A DNA stretch of 42,460 nt, from positions 1-42,460 of the forward strand of contig JAGWAH010000027.1 of the NCBI GenBank assembly GCA_021296515.1, given 5' to 3'. Every line of letters starts with the position of its first letter. The stretch's first letter is position 1. Position numbers and translations under genes: made by a program. This DNA comes from Acidobacteriota bacterium (GTDB taxonomy: Bacteria; Acidobacteriota; Vicinamibacteria; Vicinamibacterales; UBA8438). The notes below the pieces were generated by a model. It did not search any database and was not told where the DNA came from. It saw only the letters and a program-made list of their open reading frames with translations. Positions 8,679 to 16,612 of this stretch are shown here, one piece after another.

Positions 8679-9668
8679 CTACGGCGTGCCCGTGACGGAT
8701 GCCGCTCCGGCGCCCGCATATCGATCCTCGGCCTTGGCGGGACGGCCCGCCGGCGCATCGCCGGTCTGTCCCGCGCCGTCGAGCCGAAGCAGCCGGATGA
8801 ACTGCGTCACGGCCGGATTCAGTCGCCGCCGCCGGCGGTGGACGATGCTCAGCGGTCGCACGAAGGCGGCCTCGCCGTCGAGCGTGTCGAGGGCGACGGT
8901 CACCAGCGTCTGGCGCTCCACTTCGCGCCGCAGCGTAGATTCCGGAAGAATCGCGATTCCCGCGCCGTCCTCCACGGCCTGCTTGATGTTCTCGATCGTG
9001 TCGAACTCGGCCACGACCTCGAGGTCGACGCCGTGCCGTCGCAGATAGCGGTCGAGCTCGCGCCGGACCGGGAGTCCCCGGTCGAACGTCACGAACGCGG
9101 CGCCGTTCAGCTCCCACGGTCCGATCGCCGTCGTTCGTTGTGCGAAGCGGTGCGCGGGGGGACAGGCGACCGCCATGGTCTGCTGCCGCCACGGGACGAC
9201 CGTCAGGTCCCGGCCCGGCGTGGCGAACGCCAGCAGTCCGACGTCCGACTGATCGTTCTGGATGCGGGTCGGGATCTCGTCCGGGTGCATGTACTCGATG
9301 TCGACGTGCGCGCCGGGGACCGCTGCGCGAAACCGGTCGACGTACTGGCTGAGATCGTGCAGCCCGACGGAATAGATGGACGCCAGCCGGACCGTGTAGC
9401 CGGACGGGTCCTGTCGCCGCTGTACCGCTTCTTCGAGCTCGTGGTAGCGGTCGACGATCTCCTGGCAACCCTGGAAGAAGAGCTTGCCCTCCGGCGTCAA
9501 TTGCCACGGGCGGCGCGACCGGTCGATCAACTGCGCGCCGAGCCGCCGCTCGAGCTGACGCACCGCCTGACTGGCCGCGGACTGACTGACCGAGTTGGCC
9601 AGCGCGCCCCGCGAGAAGCTCTGGTGCCGAACCACGTCGCAGAAGATGTTGAGCGCCTCCAGATGCAT
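8679..9668 (-). CDS. LysR-type transcriptional regulator
   Basis: A 329-aa protein with the LysR winged helix at the N-terminus (about 2-61; ALANSVSQSAASQAVRQLE) and a periplasmic-binding-protein-like effector domain (about 90-300). The last 35 residues are a Pro/Ala/Gly-rich tail. It lies between gltBD and the sulfite reductase operon, so the target could be gltBD (30 nt downstream), sulfur genes, or both. The effector is unknown. The ATG at 9668 has a poor ribosome-binding site; a promoter-like TTGCCA-N17-TACAGT predicts transcription starting only a few nt upstream, so the mRNA may be almost leaderless. Confidence 0.88.
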   Translation of the reverse strand: MHLEALNIFCDVVRHQSFSRGALANSVSQSAASQAVRQLERRLGAQLIDRSRRPWQLTPEGKLFFQGCQEIVDRYHELEEAVQRRQDPSGYTVRLASIYSVGLHDLSQYVDRFRAAVPGAHVDIEYMHPDEIPTRIQNDQSDVGLLAFATPGRDLTVVPWRQQTMAVACPPAHRFAQRTTAIGPWELNGAAFVTFDRGLPVRRELDRYLRRHGVDLEVVAEFDTIENIKQAVEDGAGIAILPESTLRREVERQTLVTVALDTLDGEAAFVRPLSIVHRRRRRLNPAVTQFIRLLRLDGAGQTGDAPAGRPAKAEDRYAGAGAASVTGTP

Positions 9669-10127: not shown

Positions 10128-10721
10128 TCACTCTACCCTGGACAGCAGCGTCGCGAGCGGTACCGCGCCCACGGTCTTCACGGTGAGGCCGAGGCGGGCC
10201 GGGTCGTCCAGCGGCTGGACTTCGACGTTCGAGCCGCCAAAGAGCCGGCCGCCGAATGCGACGAGGGCGTCACGCAGCGCGGTCTCGGTGTCGGCCGTCC
10301 GCGGCGCGGCCAGGCGGTCGTTGGCCGCGAACGCGATCTCGTTGCCCGGGAAGACGATGCCGCCGCCCGTCATGCGGGAGGTGTCGTGCTCCAGTCGCCG
10401 GGCCGCGGCAATCAGCGCCGCCGCCGCGACCGCCAGCCGCTCGCCGAAGGTCCCTTCGAGCGGCTGCTTGCGGGTGTAGGACAGACCGGGGCGCCCGCCG
10501 GTCTCGTCGAGCGCGTAGTTGGCCTCGTGGGCTATGAGCAGCACGCTCGGCCCATCGACGAGGTGCGTGTAGTCGGCCACGTCGATCAGGAGGCCGGGGA
10601 CCGCTCCCTCCTGAATCCAGCGGTGGAAGACCGGAATGATCGTGCTTGGGACGCCCGCCGACGCGGGCTCCGCGAAGATCTTCAGGCTGAAGCGCTGCAG
10701 CGCCGCGGCGTGGTATGCCAT
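10128..10721 (-). CDS. Conserved-looking hypothetical protein coupled to sulfite reductase
   Basis: A 197-aa soluble protein without signal peptide or membrane segment; I do not recognise the family. Its ATG follows the TAG stop of the upstream reductase gene with no base between, so it is very likely translated by re-initiation and made together with the reductase. Notable stretches are FHRWIQEGAVPGLLIDVADYTHL, LLIAHEANYALDETGGRPGL near residues 60-80, and an Ala-rich helix followed by RMTGGGIVFPGNEIAFAAN. The mixed alpha/beta character and position suggest a role with the reductase or its siroheme supply, but this is inference from operon structure only. Confidence 0.8.
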   Translation of the reverse strand: MAYHAAALQRFSLKIFAEPASAGVPSTIIPVFHRWIQEGAVPGLLIDVADYTHLVDGPSVLLIAHEANYALDETGGRPGLSYTRKQPLEGTFGERLAVAAAALIAAARRLEHDTSRMTGGGIVFPGNEIAFAANDRLAAPRTADTETALRDALVAFGGRLFGGSNVEVQPLDDPARLGLTVKTVGAVPLATLLSRVE

Positions 10722-12998
<2,277 letters not shown>

Positions 12999-12999
12999 G

Positions 13000-13842
13000 T
13001 CACACCTTCCTTGCCTGCTCGCGTGGGCCGTCGAGAGTCCGCGGGGCGCCGGCGTCGGCGGTTCGCGCCGGTGTCCGGGTCCCGCCGATGAGCGCGCTGA
13101 GGTTCGCCACTTCGCCGACCACGATGGTGCCGGGCGCGTCGGCCGGGGCTTCCAGGCGAGCGGTTCCGAGCTCGCCGAGGCGTCCCGTCCAGAGGTGCAT
13201 CCGCGGCGTCGAAGCGGCCAGCGCGACCGCTGCCGGCGTACGCGGATCCCAGCCGCGGTCGAGCAGCGTCGCGGCGATGCGCTCTCGATTCCGCAGGCCC
13301 ATCAGAACGATCACCGTCATCGATCCGGGAACCACCGCGCCCAGGATCGGCTCGAAGGCTCCAGCCGCATGGCCGGACACCACCGTGAACCCGGCCGCGA
13401 GTCCCCGGTGCGTCACCGGAATGCCCGACAATGCAGGGGCCGCGACCGCTGCCGTGATGCCCGGGACGACCTCGAACGGGATGCCGGCCGCCCGCAGGGC
13501 CAACGCCTCCTCGCCGCCGCGCCCGAGCAGAAACGGGTCGCCGTTCTTCAGCCGCACCACGCGCTTGCCGCGCCGTGCGCCGCGGATCATCACCTGGTGA
13601 ATCGTGTCCTGGTCCACCGCCGGCCGTCCGGCCCGCTTGCTGACGGAAAAGTGCTGCGCCCGCGTCGCCAGGGCCGTCACTTCCGGCGGCACCAGCCCGT
13701 CGTACAGCAGCAGGTCCGCCTCGGCGAGGCGCCGCGCCGCCTTCAGCGTCAGCAGCTCCGGGTCTCCGGGGCCGGCTCCGACGAGCGACACGAATCCGAG
13801 TCTGTCGCCGCGCGCCGCCGGTGAGCTCTTGCCGATCGTCAT
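13000..13842 (-). CDS. cobA: Uroporphyrinogen-III C-methyltransferase
   Basis: A 280-aa SAM-dependent enzyme that methylates uroporphyrinogen III twice to precorrin-2, the first step to siroheme. The family motifs VSLVGAGPGDPELLTLKA (near 20) and VVPGITAAVAAPALSGIPVTHRG (near 125-145) are present, as is RLKNGDPFLLGRGGEE. The ATG at 13842 overlaps the stop of the upstream dehydrogenase gene (ATGA), and its own stop is one base before the reductase ATG, so the three are translationally coupled. Together with the dehydrogenase it supplies siroheme to the reductase encoded next. A ferrochelatase function is not seen as a separate gene here. Confidence 0.95.
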   Translation of the reverse strand: MTIGKSSPAARGDRLGFVSLVGAGPGDPELLTLKAARRLAEADLLLYDGLVPPEVTALATRAQHFSVSKRAGRPAVDQDTIHQVMIRGARRGKRVVRLKNGDPFLLGRGGEEALALRAAGIPFEVVPGITAAVAAPALSGIPVTHRGLAAGFTVVSGHAAGAFEPILGAVVPGSMTVIVLMGLRNRERIAATLLDRGWDPRTPAAVALAASTPRMHLWTGRLGELGTARLEAPADAPGTIVVGEVANLSALIGGTRTPARTADAGAPRTLDGPREQARKV

Positions 13843-14456
13843 GACGTCGGTGTTCCCGGCGTCGCGGCATCGGACGCCCTGCAATCGTCGTCGCTATCGC
13901 GGGAATAGAGTCTGACGAGCGCCTCCAGCAGTTCCGGGCGCCGCGCTTCCATGGGTACCTGCCCGGCCCGCCACCGCTCGCGCATCCGCACCGCCTCGGA
14001 CAGCCAGCGCTCGAGCTCTTCCACCGGCAGAACCGCGTCGAGTCCTTCGCGCAGCAACCCGGCCAGGGCCGGCGCGCGCCCGTCGGTCGAGACGGCGAAG
14101 GTCACGCCCCCGCGCCGCACGACGCCGCCCAAGTAGAGGCTGGCGTTCGGCGGATCGTCGACCGCGTTGACGAACACGCACCGCGTCTCCGCTGCTCGCG
14201 CCACCGCGCGGTTGACCTCCGGCGTCGCCGCCGCCACGACCAGCCACGCGCCGTCGAGGTCGGACGGCCGGAACTCGCGCTCGACCCGCGTCACGTGCGC
14301 TGCTTCTGCCGCCTCGCCGACCCATGCCGGCGCGACGACGGTGACGTCGGCCCCCGCGTCGAGCAGTCCGCGCAGCTTCGCCGCCGCGACCGGTCCGGCC
14401 CCGACTACCACCACACGCCGGCCGCGGAGCTTCAAGAAGGCGGGGTAGAGATGCAT
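13839..14456 (-). CDS. Precorrin-2 dehydrogenase / sirohydrochlorin ferrochelatase-like (CysG N-terminal, Met8 family)
   Basis: About 205 aa. It starts with MHLYPAFLKLRGRRVVVVGAGPVAAAK, the NAD-binding Rossmann start of the SirC/Met8/CysG-N family, which oxidises precorrin-2 to sirohydrochlorin; some members also insert iron. The family Asp region is at NAVDDPPNASLYLGGVV. It is the first structural gene after the cysteine-rich leader. Two starts are possible: the ATG at 14456, which fits the family N-terminus, or a TTG at 14465 with GAGAA upstream. The C-terminus runs into a short polar tail ending in the ATGA overlap with cobA. Confidence 0.93.
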   Translation of the reverse strand: MHLYPAFLKLRGRRVVVVGAGPVAAAKLRGLLDAGADVTVVAPAWVGEAAEAAHVTRVEREFRPSDLDGAWLVVAAATPEVNRAVARAAETRCVFVNAVDDPPNASLYLGGVVRRGGVTFAVSTDGRAPALAGLLREGLDAVLPVEELERWLSEAVRMRERWRAGQVPMEARRPELLEALVRLYSRDSDDDCRASDAATPGTPTS

Positions 14457-14557: not shown

Positions 14558-14591
14558 AAAAAAAGCCCGGAGGGCATCTGCCCCCCCGGGC
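14558..14591 (-). terminator. Intrinsic terminator in the leader of the siroheme/sulfite reductase operon (attenuator)
   Basis: On the minus strand the arms GCCCGGGGGGGC (14591-14580) and GCCCTCCGGGC (14575-14565) form about 11 bp with one G-U pair and one bulged G, around the loop AGAT, followed directly by seven Ts (14564-14558). It lies between the leader peptide stop (14624) and the first structural gene (14456), so it must be read through for the operon to be expressed. Confidence 0.9.
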
Positions 14592-14623
14592 CTCCGTGTC
14601 GTACGTCGTGTGCTGTGTCTCGT

Positions 14624-14725
14624 CTACGTAGCAGCGTGCAACGCGGTACGAACGTCGGCGTGGGGGAGCCCTTGGGGCCCCGTACAACAGCAGCAACAGG
14701 CGCAGACGACCGGTAGTGTCTTCAT
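14624..14725 (-). CDS. Cysteine-rich leader peptide (attenuator uORF) of the siroheme/sulfite reductase operon
   Basis: A 33-codon ORF beginning ATG and ending TAG. It encodes MKTLPVVCACCCCCT and then a polar tail with no further Cys. Six of the seven codons 8-14 are cysteine (TGC GCC TGT TGC TGC TGT TGT). It begins about 15 nt after the predicted start of transcription and ends 32 nt before the terminator hairpin. The operon it precedes makes sulfide for cysteine. The arrangement is that of the trp and his leaders: stalling at Cys codons when Cys-tRNA is scarce would favour antitermination. Cysteine-rich uORFs before sulfur genes are known in actinobacteria and some proteobacteria. The start has no strong ribosome-binding site. 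Confidence 0.85.
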   Translation of the reverse strand: MKTLPVVCACCCCCTGPQGLPHADVRTALHAAT

Positions 14726-14746
14726 CGCGGTGCTTGGCGTACGCTC

Positions 14747-14777
14747 ATTGTAGCCCGGCGGCACGGCAAGGCGTCAA
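14747..14777 (-). promoter_or_regulatory. Sigma70-type promoter of the cysteine-regulated operon
   Basis: The minus strand has TTGACG (14777-14772) and TACAAT (14752-14747), each one mismatch from consensus, with a 19-nt spacer (slightly long). The predicted start is near 14740, immediately before the leader peptide. Confidence 0.6.
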
Positions 14778-14887
14778 GCGGGCGGCGCGTTCCCGCGAGC
14801 GGGGCGCGGGGGTAGGCGCGGGGGTGCATGCTACAGTGCGCGGTTCTCCACGCTGCACGACCACGCACCAGAGAGGAACGACGCACC

Positions 14888-16612
14888 GTGTTCGATCACC
14901 TGATAGCTCCGCACGGCGGGGCCCTCGTCGATCTGTCCGCCAGCGAAGATCGTGTCGCCGCGCTGAAGGCGGCGTCGCGCGACTGGCAGTCGCACGATCT
15001 GACGCCGCGCCAGCTCTGCGACCTGGAGTTGCTCGCCAGCGGCGGGTTCTCTCCGCTGGTCGGTTTCCTCGGGCGCCGCGACTACGACCGGGTAGTTGCG
15101 GAGCTGCGTCTGGGCGACGGGACGCTGTGGCCGGTGCCGATCACGCTCGATGTCCCCGACGCGCTCGCGGCGTCGCTGTCGTCCGGATCGCGCCTTGCGT
15201 TGCGCGACGAGGAGGGCGTCATGCTGGCCGTCCTCGATGTCGAGGACGTCTGGCGACCGGATCGGGAGGCTGAAGCGGCGGCGGTGTTCGGCACCACCAA
15301 CCGGGAGCATCCGGGGGTGGCGCACCTGCTCGACCGGACGCAGCCCTGGTACGTCGGCGGGCGGGTGACGGCGGTGCAGCCGGTGACTCACTACGACTAC
15401 CGGCTGCTGCGCCACACGCCGGCGGAGCTGCGGGCGGCGTTCGCGAAGCTGGGCTGGACGAGGATCGTCGCGTTCCAGACCCGCAACCCGATGCACCGGG
15501 CGCACCAGGAGTTGACCCTGCGCGCGGCCAAGGAGGTCGAGGCGAGCCTGCTGATCCATCCCGTGGTCGGCCTGACCAGGCCGGGCGACGTGGACCACTA
15601 CACGCGCGTGCGGTGCTACCAGGCGCTGCTGCAGCGCTATCCGTCCAAGACGGCGCTGCTGTCGCTGCTGCCGCTCGCGATGCGCATGGGCGGCCCGCGC
15701 GAGGCGGTCTGGCATGCGATCATCCGCAAGAACCACGGTTGCACCCACCTCATCGTCGGGCGCGACCACGCGGGTCCGGGCAGCGACTCGGCCGGCGACC
15801 CGTTCTACGGGCCGTACGACGCGCAGGAGCTGCTGCGGCAGCACGAGGCCGAGCTCGGGGTGACGATGGTGCCGTTCCGGATGATGGTCTACGTCGAGGA
15901 CCGCGATTCGTACATGCCGGTCGACGAAGTTCCGCAGGGGACGCGCACCCTGAACCTGTCGGGCACCGAGCTGCGGCAACGGCTCGCCGGCGGGAAGGAC
16001 ATCCCGTCCTGGTTCACCTTCCCCGAGGTCGCCCGGGAGCTGCGGCGGAGCCACCCGCCGCGGGAGCGGCAGGGCTTCACCGTCTTCTTCACGGGGCTGT
16101 CGGGATCGGGCAAGTCGACGATCGCCAACGCGCTCCTGGTCAAGTTCCTGGAGTTCGGCGGCCGGCCGGTGACGCTGCTCGACGGGGACCTCGTGCGCAG
16201 GAACCTGTCGAGCGAGCTAGGCTTCTCGAAGGAGCACCGCGACATCAACATCCGGCGCATCGGCTACGTGGCGTCGGAGATCACCAAGAACGGCGGCATC
16301 GCGGTGTGCGCCCCGATCGCGCCGTACGACGCGGTGCGCAAGGACGTGCGGGCAACGATCGAGCCGCTCGGCGGCTTCGTGCTGGTGCACGTCGACACCC
16401 CGCTCGATGTGTGCGAGCAGCGCGACCGCAAGGGGCTCTACGCCAAGGCGCGGGCCGGCATCATCAAGGAGTTCACCGGGGTCTCCGATCCCTACGAGGC
16501 GCCGGCGGACGCCGAGCTGGCGATCGACACGACGGCGCTGACCCCCGACGAAGCGGCGCAGCGGATCATCCTGCACCTGGAGACAGCGGGGTACGTCGGC
16601 GCGGCGGATTAA
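14888..16612 (+). CDS. sat: Bifunctional sulfate adenylyltransferase / adenylylsulfate kinase
   Basis: A 574-aa fusion starting at GTG, with AGAGGAACG upstream. Residues 1 to about 385 are ATP sulfurylase, with the nucleotide-binding QTRNPMHRAH (197-206) and GRDHAGPG (291-298). Residues about 395-574 are APS kinase (CysC), with the P-loop GLSGSGKS (403-410), DGD (432-434) and the RDINIRRIGYVA segment. It converts sulfate and ATP to APS and then PAPS. It is divergent from the sulfite reductase operon, with a 160-bp intergenic region holding the promoter of that operon. No PAPS or APS reductase gene is in the window. An in-frame ATG at 14828 is further upstream but gives a non-family extension. 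Confidence 0.96.
   Translation: MFDHLIAPHGGALVDLSASEDRVAALKAASRDWQSHDLTPRQLCDLELLASGGFSPLVGFLGRRDYDRVVAELRLGDGTLWPVPITLDVPDALAASLSSGSRLALRDEEGVMLAVLDVEDVWRPDREAEAAAVFGTTNREHPGVAHLLDRTQPWYVGGRVTAVQPVTHYDYRLLRHTPAELRAAFAKLGWTRIVAFQTRNPMHRAHQELTLRAAKEVEASLLIHPVVGLTRPGDVDHYTRVRCYQALLQRYPSKTALLSLLPLAMRMGGPREAVWHAIIRKNHGCTHLIVGRDHAGPGSDSAGDPFYGPYDAQELLRQHEAELGVTMVPFRMMVYVEDRDSYMPVDEVPQGTRTLNLSGTELRQRLAGGKDIPSWFTFPEVARELRRSHPPRERQGFTVFFTGLSGSGKSTIANALLVKFLEFGGRPVTLLDGDLVRRNLSSELGFSKEHRDINIRRIGYVASEITKNGGIAVCAPIAPYDAVRKDVRATIEPLGGFVLVHVDTPLDVCEQRDRKGLYAKARAGIIKEFTGVSDPYEAPADAELAIDTTALTPDEAAQRIILHLETAGYVGAAD

Follow-up and report, generated by a model that had tools for sequence, protein, structure and literature searches.

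A cysteine-codon leader with a covarying terminator and antiterminator recurs ahead of sulfur assimilation operons in a class of Acidobacteriota

Organization of the locus

The window, a stretch of 42,460 nucleotides from a bacterium of the Vicinamibacterales (Acidobacteriota), carries on its minus strand a gene for precorrin-2 dehydrogenase/sirohydrochlorin ferrochelatase of the Met8 or CysG N-terminal type (13839-14456; TIGR01470, E = 5.5e-38), which is the first structural gene behind the leader, a gene for uroporphyrinogen-III C-methyltransferase of the CobA or CysG C-terminal type (13000-13884; TIGR01469, E = 5.4e-73, above the cut-off) and a gene for a NirA-like nitrite/sulfite reductase (10722-12998) with NIR_SIR and ferredoxin-like half domains (PF01077, PF03460). 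The reductase scores under the NCBIfam cut-offs for sulfite reductases and for nitrite reductases alike, and sulfite is its likely substrate because of the adjacent siroheme synthesis genes, the bifunctional ATP sulfurylase/APS kinase that is encoded at 14828-16612 divergently from the leader operon, and the cysH genes of relatives. A conserved protein of no known family (10128-10721, minus strand), without a match in NCBIfam or Pfam searches, is encoded directly 3′ of the reductase in the genomes of the family that offer enough sequence, and by this synteny is a candidate partner in sulfite reduction. The window also holds a gene for a LysR regulator (8679-9668, minus strand), after which comes a glutamate synthase gene.

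APS/PAPS reductase (PF01507) had no match in the window genome G000, which is 88% complete, and in the relative G003 just a 90-residue remnant of the cysH gene is left (locus L034, 5324-5587), with the leader on one side and met8 on the other. Both genomes have retained the siroheme and reductase genes; sulfite may have another source in G000, or the PF01507 gene may sit in the missing part of the genome. As judged from these gene remains, cysH is partly decaying in the window's genus.

Reading the leader region base by base on the minus strand gives a promoter at 14777-14747 with TTGACG as -35 (14777-14772) and TACAAT as -10 (14752-14747), separated by a 19-bp spacer that is longer than the optimal 17. 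It is followed by a leader ORF of 33 codons (14725-14624; start ATG at 14725-14723, stop TAG at 14626-14624) encoding MKTLPVVCACCCCCTGPQGLPHADVRTALHAAT, in which six of the 33 residues are cysteine. These occupy codons 8 and 10-14, and the regulatory stretch reads TGC GCC TGT TGC TGC TGT TGT (14704-14684). Directly 3′ of it a putative protector hairpin (14681-14663) is formed by GGGGCCC (14681-14675) facing GGGCTCCCC (14671-14663). The intrinsic terminator (14591-14558) has the arms GCCCGGGGGGGC (14591-14580) and GCCCTCCGGGC (14575-14565) and seven Ts (14564-14558), and the first gene begins about 100 nt 3′ of it. Promoter, ORF, cysteine codons and terminator are all placed as the original prediction had placed them. 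The 8-bp antiterminator that it described, GCTCCCCC (14669-14662) with GGGGGGGC (14587-14580), is present with one G-U among its eight pairs, but it is merely the proximal block of a longer predicted helix between GCTCCCCCACGCCGACGTTCGTACCGCGTT within the leader ORF (14669-14640) and a 3′ strand (14609-14580) whose final part is the terminator 5′ arm.

Conservation of the leader in relatives

The cysteine run by itself is, as DNA, not improbable: the 3.3 Mb genome holds 4 stretches of five consecutive TGY codons and 6 of the reversed control pattern, and conservation is therefore the test. Searches of the window's own genome gave no further copy of the leader, and none of the other TGY x5 runs inspected there was a short leader ORF before a terminator. 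Leaders were sought protein-first in relatives, by way of the reductase orthologues, the location of the Met8 gene and the reading of the DNA upstream. All 24 leaders obtained in this manner (the window included), which span the window's family and four further families of its order, have a cysteine run and, 78-99 nt further on, an intrinsic terminator. A check of relatives for run and terminator had been proposed together with the original prediction, and both are kept in these 24 homologous leaders and in about 100 further copies. Four Met8-bearing loci gave no leader at the protein-first step; the contig ends too early at L035, G015 and G059 carry a leader elsewhere in the genome, and G039 showed none.

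The operon in most relatives opens with TauE or DUF2061, then cysH, ahead of met8, and the leader stays at the operon head whichever gene comes first. That it adjoins met8 in the window is probably because the first genes of the operon were lost. The tail from the run to the stop codon varies (39-63 nt) and the distance from run to terminator is constant (78-99 nt), and such a shifting stop codon within a fixed RNA distance points to an RNA device. The N-termini of the leader peptides differ even inside the window's genus. In 100 aligned copies codon positions 1 and 2 of the cysteine run are almost fixed and the third positions vary between T and C (47/41, 53/39, 91/5 and 80/17), which is the mark of selection on cysteine. 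The leaders use TGT in 319 and TGC in 178 of 497 cysteine codons, against 3 TGT and 47 TGC in the genes of the window; this preference may serve sharper sensing or keep the run unpaired.

An exact TTGAC -35 element lies at the same place in 91 of 107 homologous leaders. Since the first in-frame ATG, GTG or TTG comes 6-10 nt after the predicted -10 box in 73 of 96 leaders, the uORFs, by these predicted starts, mostly look leaderless, and a Shine-Dalgarno-like stretch is rare among them. In the window the ORF starts 21 nt after the -10 box, and this longer gap is typical of its genus.

Covariation of terminator and antiterminator

Leader tails paired with the terminator arm and the 15 nt preceding it more strongly than either control did, with a mean z of -2.97 against dinucleotide shuffles and of -2.96 against tails whose codons had been permuted. 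When all registers were scanned in 85 non-redundant copies, diagonal 139-141 ranked top with three blocks, GGCCCC-cGCc with GgC-GGGGcc, GGTC with GACC and GCGT with ACGC. Over 100 copies the antiterminator helix comprises about 19 pairs with interruptions, and 74% of its cells are paired, with 105 double-change cells against 59.8 in shuffles and a covariation score of 0.198 against 0.150. None of 500 shuffles, which ignore relatedness, reached the percentage, the cells or the score, and sliding the helix by one column lowered the paired cells to 55% and 42%. The terminator helix is 92% paired in the same 100 copies, with 88 double-change cells against 19.3 in shuffles. At one position the covariation is three-way, a leader C going with G in the arm and C or T in the distal strand and a leader T with A and T, and it holds when stratified by family (CMH p = 0.0003). 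An arm position that covaries with both partners indicates one strand common to two exclusive helices, and the covariation that had been suggested as a check on the original prediction is in this way present in both helices and across them.

The leader peptides have a conserved C-terminal motif, ELTVV or ADGRTALHA, which is explained by the RNA pairing and not by the peptide. Cognate pairs of tail and arm differ little from non-cognate pairs (-34.5 versus -31.9 kcal/mol), a weak contrast due to the likeness of the arms. RNAalifold on a MAFFT alignment recovered the terminator alone. The hairpin directly behind the cysteine codons, also part of the original prediction, is there in the window (it folds alone at -12.6 kcal/mol) and forms a conserved block in the alignment with 83% pairing, but its stability does not exceed that of shuffles, neither in the window (z = -0.5) nor over the 24 leaders (mean z -1.15).

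Effect of ribosome position on modelled folding

Stalling was modelled by masking the RNA up to 13 nt past the last cysteine codon and cutting the transcript just past the terminator 5′ arm. Mean occupancy of the arm by the leader was then 0.82 for ribosomes stalled on cysteine, 0.43 for ribosomes at the stop codon and 0.53 for free RNA, and it was higher in the stalled than in the stop state in 89 of 98 leaders (Wilcoxon p = 3e-15). The modelled fold thereby moves in the direction originally predicted, by which stalling on cysteine codons favours the antiterminator. For the full-length leader of the window the terminator probability was 0.72 when free, 0.77 with the ribosome at the stop and 0.08 when stalled on the last cysteine codon. 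Occupancy of its arm in the cut transcript stays nearly the same (0.77, 0.80, 0.78). Few leaders switch at equilibrium, that of the window among them; in full length, most remain biased towards the terminator even with a mask placed at the last cysteine codon (median 0.94), and folding order during transcription must therefore matter.

Distribution and downstream genes

A first covariance model, built from 23 leaders, was run against 162 genomes of the order and had matches in 117 of them (E <= 0.01). Among 80 further matches of this model that were fetched, 77 had a terminator behind a cysteine-containing ORF, which was cysteine-rich in nearly every case. The other three (L245, L256 and L257) had no convincing cysteine leader and were rejected as false. 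The cysteine content of model matches is partly built in, as the model contains the cysteine codons, and the protein-first searches are unaffected by this. With a second model, built on 100 clean copies, the class-wide tally came to 117 of 193 genomes (E <= 0.001) and took in another family of the class, f16. There are often 2-4 copies per genome, with runs of 3-6 cysteines. At E <= 1e-6 the element occurred in 37 of 41 genomes with the reductase and in 2 of 19 without (Fisher p = 2e-9; n = 60). Rfam gave no match at gathering thresholds for the element of the window. Beyond the class model matches are scattered, few and mostly weak; L280, ahead of ATP sulfurylase, and L281, ahead of cysH, look real.

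Genes downstream of the copies were called by third-position GC in this GC-rich DNA, followed by clustering and Pfam searches. The first gene was most often siroheme synthase (34 copies) or a member of a group joined by cysD, cysH and TauE-cysD (30 copies), followed by TauE (12 copies, plus 4 of a second type), DUF2061 (6), cysK (4), TlpA-like redoxin (4), RimK-like ATP-grasp (4 in the clustering and Pfam count), 1-Cys peroxiredoxin (3), a PF03601 transporter (2) and porin O/P (1). In genus g13 it was a sulfonate-type ABC binding protein, assigned by sequence resemblance and not by family search. Given these sulfur genes, the copies form a predicted cysteine regulon of several sulfur operons beyond that of the window. 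Siroheme synthesis and sulfite reduction had originally been proposed as one leader-led unit, for which the genes were confirmed, but in the lineage as a whole the element precedes several sulfur operons.

The position of the element ahead of RimK-like ATP-grasp genes (L232, L248, L250, L251 and L284) and TlpA-like redoxin genes (L241, L246, L254 and L258) suggests roles for these in cysteine or thiol metabolism. At L194 two divergent cysteine leaders stand back to back about 140 bases apart (22-143 on the minus and 284-411 on the plus strand), a layout that may put two sulfur operons under the control of a single intergenic region. On contig G092:C1 two leaders follow one another on one strand at a spacing of 2.2 kb (61983-62122 and 64169-64309; L254 and L198), one ahead of a TlpA-like redoxin gene and the other ahead of a TauE gene.

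Proposed mechanism and alternative explanations

The features of an attenuator were found together at these loci: a short ORF in which codons for the pathway's end product cluster (24 of 24 leaders, with the third-position variation), an intrinsic terminator between this ORF and the first gene and, by covariation, a mutually exclusive antiterminator that uses the terminator 5′ arm. ORF, terminator, antiterminator pairing and association with sulfur genes are shown by the comparison of sequences, from which translation of the uORF, stalling, cysteine as the signal and the sign of the response are inferred. The element is very probably a ribosome-mediated transcription attenuator that responds to cysteine via charged tRNA-Cys. 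Transcription would start just 5′ of the leader ORF with a ribosome trailing the polymerase. With ample Cys-tRNA the ribosome would clear the cysteine run, reach the stop codon and mask the distal antiterminator strand, whereupon the terminator would form and transcription end ahead of the first gene. With scarce Cys-tRNA it would stall on the cysteine codons and mask the left half of the adjoining hairpin; the freed 14669-14640 would pair with 14609-14580, which includes the terminator 5′ arm, and the polymerase would read through into the siroheme and sulfite-reductase genes.

A cysteine-responsive translation attenuation as in mycobacteria, in which a stalled ribosome exposes the first gene's start site and the T-run hairpin is incidental, would suit uORFs that are leaderless-looking and poly-Cys like the mycobacterial ones. 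It is nevertheless improbable, as the hairpin has a T tract and is conserved and covarying, covariation links its 5′ arm to the leader, the first gene of the window lies about 100 nt downstream and the downstream genes differ among copies. That the uORF instead encodes a small functional cysteine-rich protein, serving as a metal or redox ligand, could be read from its six cysteines and its own promoter and terminator, and is very improbable in view of the variable tails and N-termini at a constant run-to-terminator distance, the lack of conservation outside the cysteine run except where the RNA pairs, and the position of the uORF ahead of sulfur genes. No better placed is a ligand-binding riboswitch, for a sulfur metabolite for instance, that overlaps an ORF by chance: the alternative structures do end in a terminator as a riboswitch's would, but there is no Rfam match and no conserved unpaired core besides the cysteine codons, and these codons vary synonymously. 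A chance TGY repeat next to the terminator of an upstream gene can practically be dismissed, however common TGY x5 may be in a GC-rich genome, since the arrangement recurs about 100 times and the upstream gene, ATP sulfurylase/APS kinase, is divergent and leaves the hairpin nothing to terminate.

Relation to known systems

A close relative among known systems is the uORFC-8-2 motif of Rhodobacterales, a two-Cys leader with a terminator ahead of cysS (PMC8632094). It shares with the present attenuator the cysteine codons in a uORF, a U-run terminator and an attenuation via charged tRNA-Cys that was proposed on computational evidence. It differs in having two tandem cysteine codons at about 14-15, as opposed to runs of 3-6, and in being alphaproteobacterial and found solely before cysteinyl-tRNA synthetase. 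The present leaders stand before sulfur assimilation genes in Acidobacteriota at several loci per genome, and were not assigned to that motif.

Cysteine leaders were predicted in Mycobacterium and others, in Mycobacterium without conserved terminator hairpins (PMC1262725). The mycobacterial polycysteine leaderless uORFs of Canestrari 2020, as described in PMC9094748 and PMC13236596, are likewise leaderless-looking and precede cysteine and sulfur operons. The difference, according to PMC13236596, which cites Canestrari 2020 for M. smegmatis, lies in translation attenuation there, as against an intrinsic terminator with a covarying antiterminator here; assignment to a translation-level type without intrinsic terminator was rejected, as all aligned leaders have a terminator. 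The classical trp, his and leu attenuators of Proteobacteria likewise place regulatory codons in a leader ORF and use an antiterminator that competes with a terminator, together with a protector whose counterpart here is putative. Here, by comparison, the amino acid is another one, the uORF mostly lacks a Shine-Dalgarno sequence and has, by the predicted starts, almost no 5′ leader, the putative protector comes right behind the cysteine codons and the antiterminator is long and interrupted. A survey of terminators also found premature terminators upstream of genes in Acidobacteria, and almost none of the attenuators predicted there had an associated function (PMC2965389).

The open-access papers searched yielded no report for Acidobacteriota, in agreement with the statement made at the outset for this lineage, and none of a sulfur regulon under terminator-based cysteine leaders, an absence that is not proof. 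The novelty would lie in the combination of a leaderless-looking poly-Cys uORF, an intrinsic terminator and a long interrupted antiterminator in a class-wide regulon. More tentatively, and with somewhat less than even confidence, the element may be a new RNA family in which leaderless uORFs drive intrinsic termination as the main cysteine control of a whole class, with many copies in one regulon that covers sulfate activation, siroheme, sulfite reduction, sulfite export, cysK, peroxiredoxin and sulfonate uptake. The attenuator would show that sulfur assimilation is commonly governed by cysteine-sensing transcription attenuation throughout a class whose members are mostly uncultured, assign a function to many attenuators of a phylum in which such functions were almost entirely lacking (PMC2965389), and join the leaderless poly-Cys uORFs of mycobacteria with terminator-based attenuation, which have so far been described apart. 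The covariance model would be a marker for cysteine-controlled genes that can place unknown genes in sulfur metabolism.

Cysteine leaders outside the class

Among named reductase loci, 80 in all and drawn from many phyla, 31 terminators were found upstream of the reductase, and 11 of these come after an ORF with at least 4 cysteines in 6 codons; leucine gave 3 and every other residue 1 or 0. Such leaders occur in other Acidobacteriota (L073, L076, L144 and L145 included) and in Chloroflexota (L095, L097, L104, L122 and L140 included). They match the covariance model weakly or not at all, and antiterminator pairing is mixed among them, being clear for L132 and L145 and not for L095, L097, L104 and L122. 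They may be independent inventions, and on the broader reading above, leaders with terminators in other Acidobacteriota and in Chloroflexota would amount to a repeated origin of the same solution.

Some leaders outside the class alternate cysteine and methionine codons, as in L097 (MMTFGMFCMCMACMCMCCM). In L097, L104 and L122, all from Chloroflexota, such alternating codons are followed about 105-133 nt behind the run by a terminator, before the same reductase, and it is possible that these leaders sense both sulfur amino acids.
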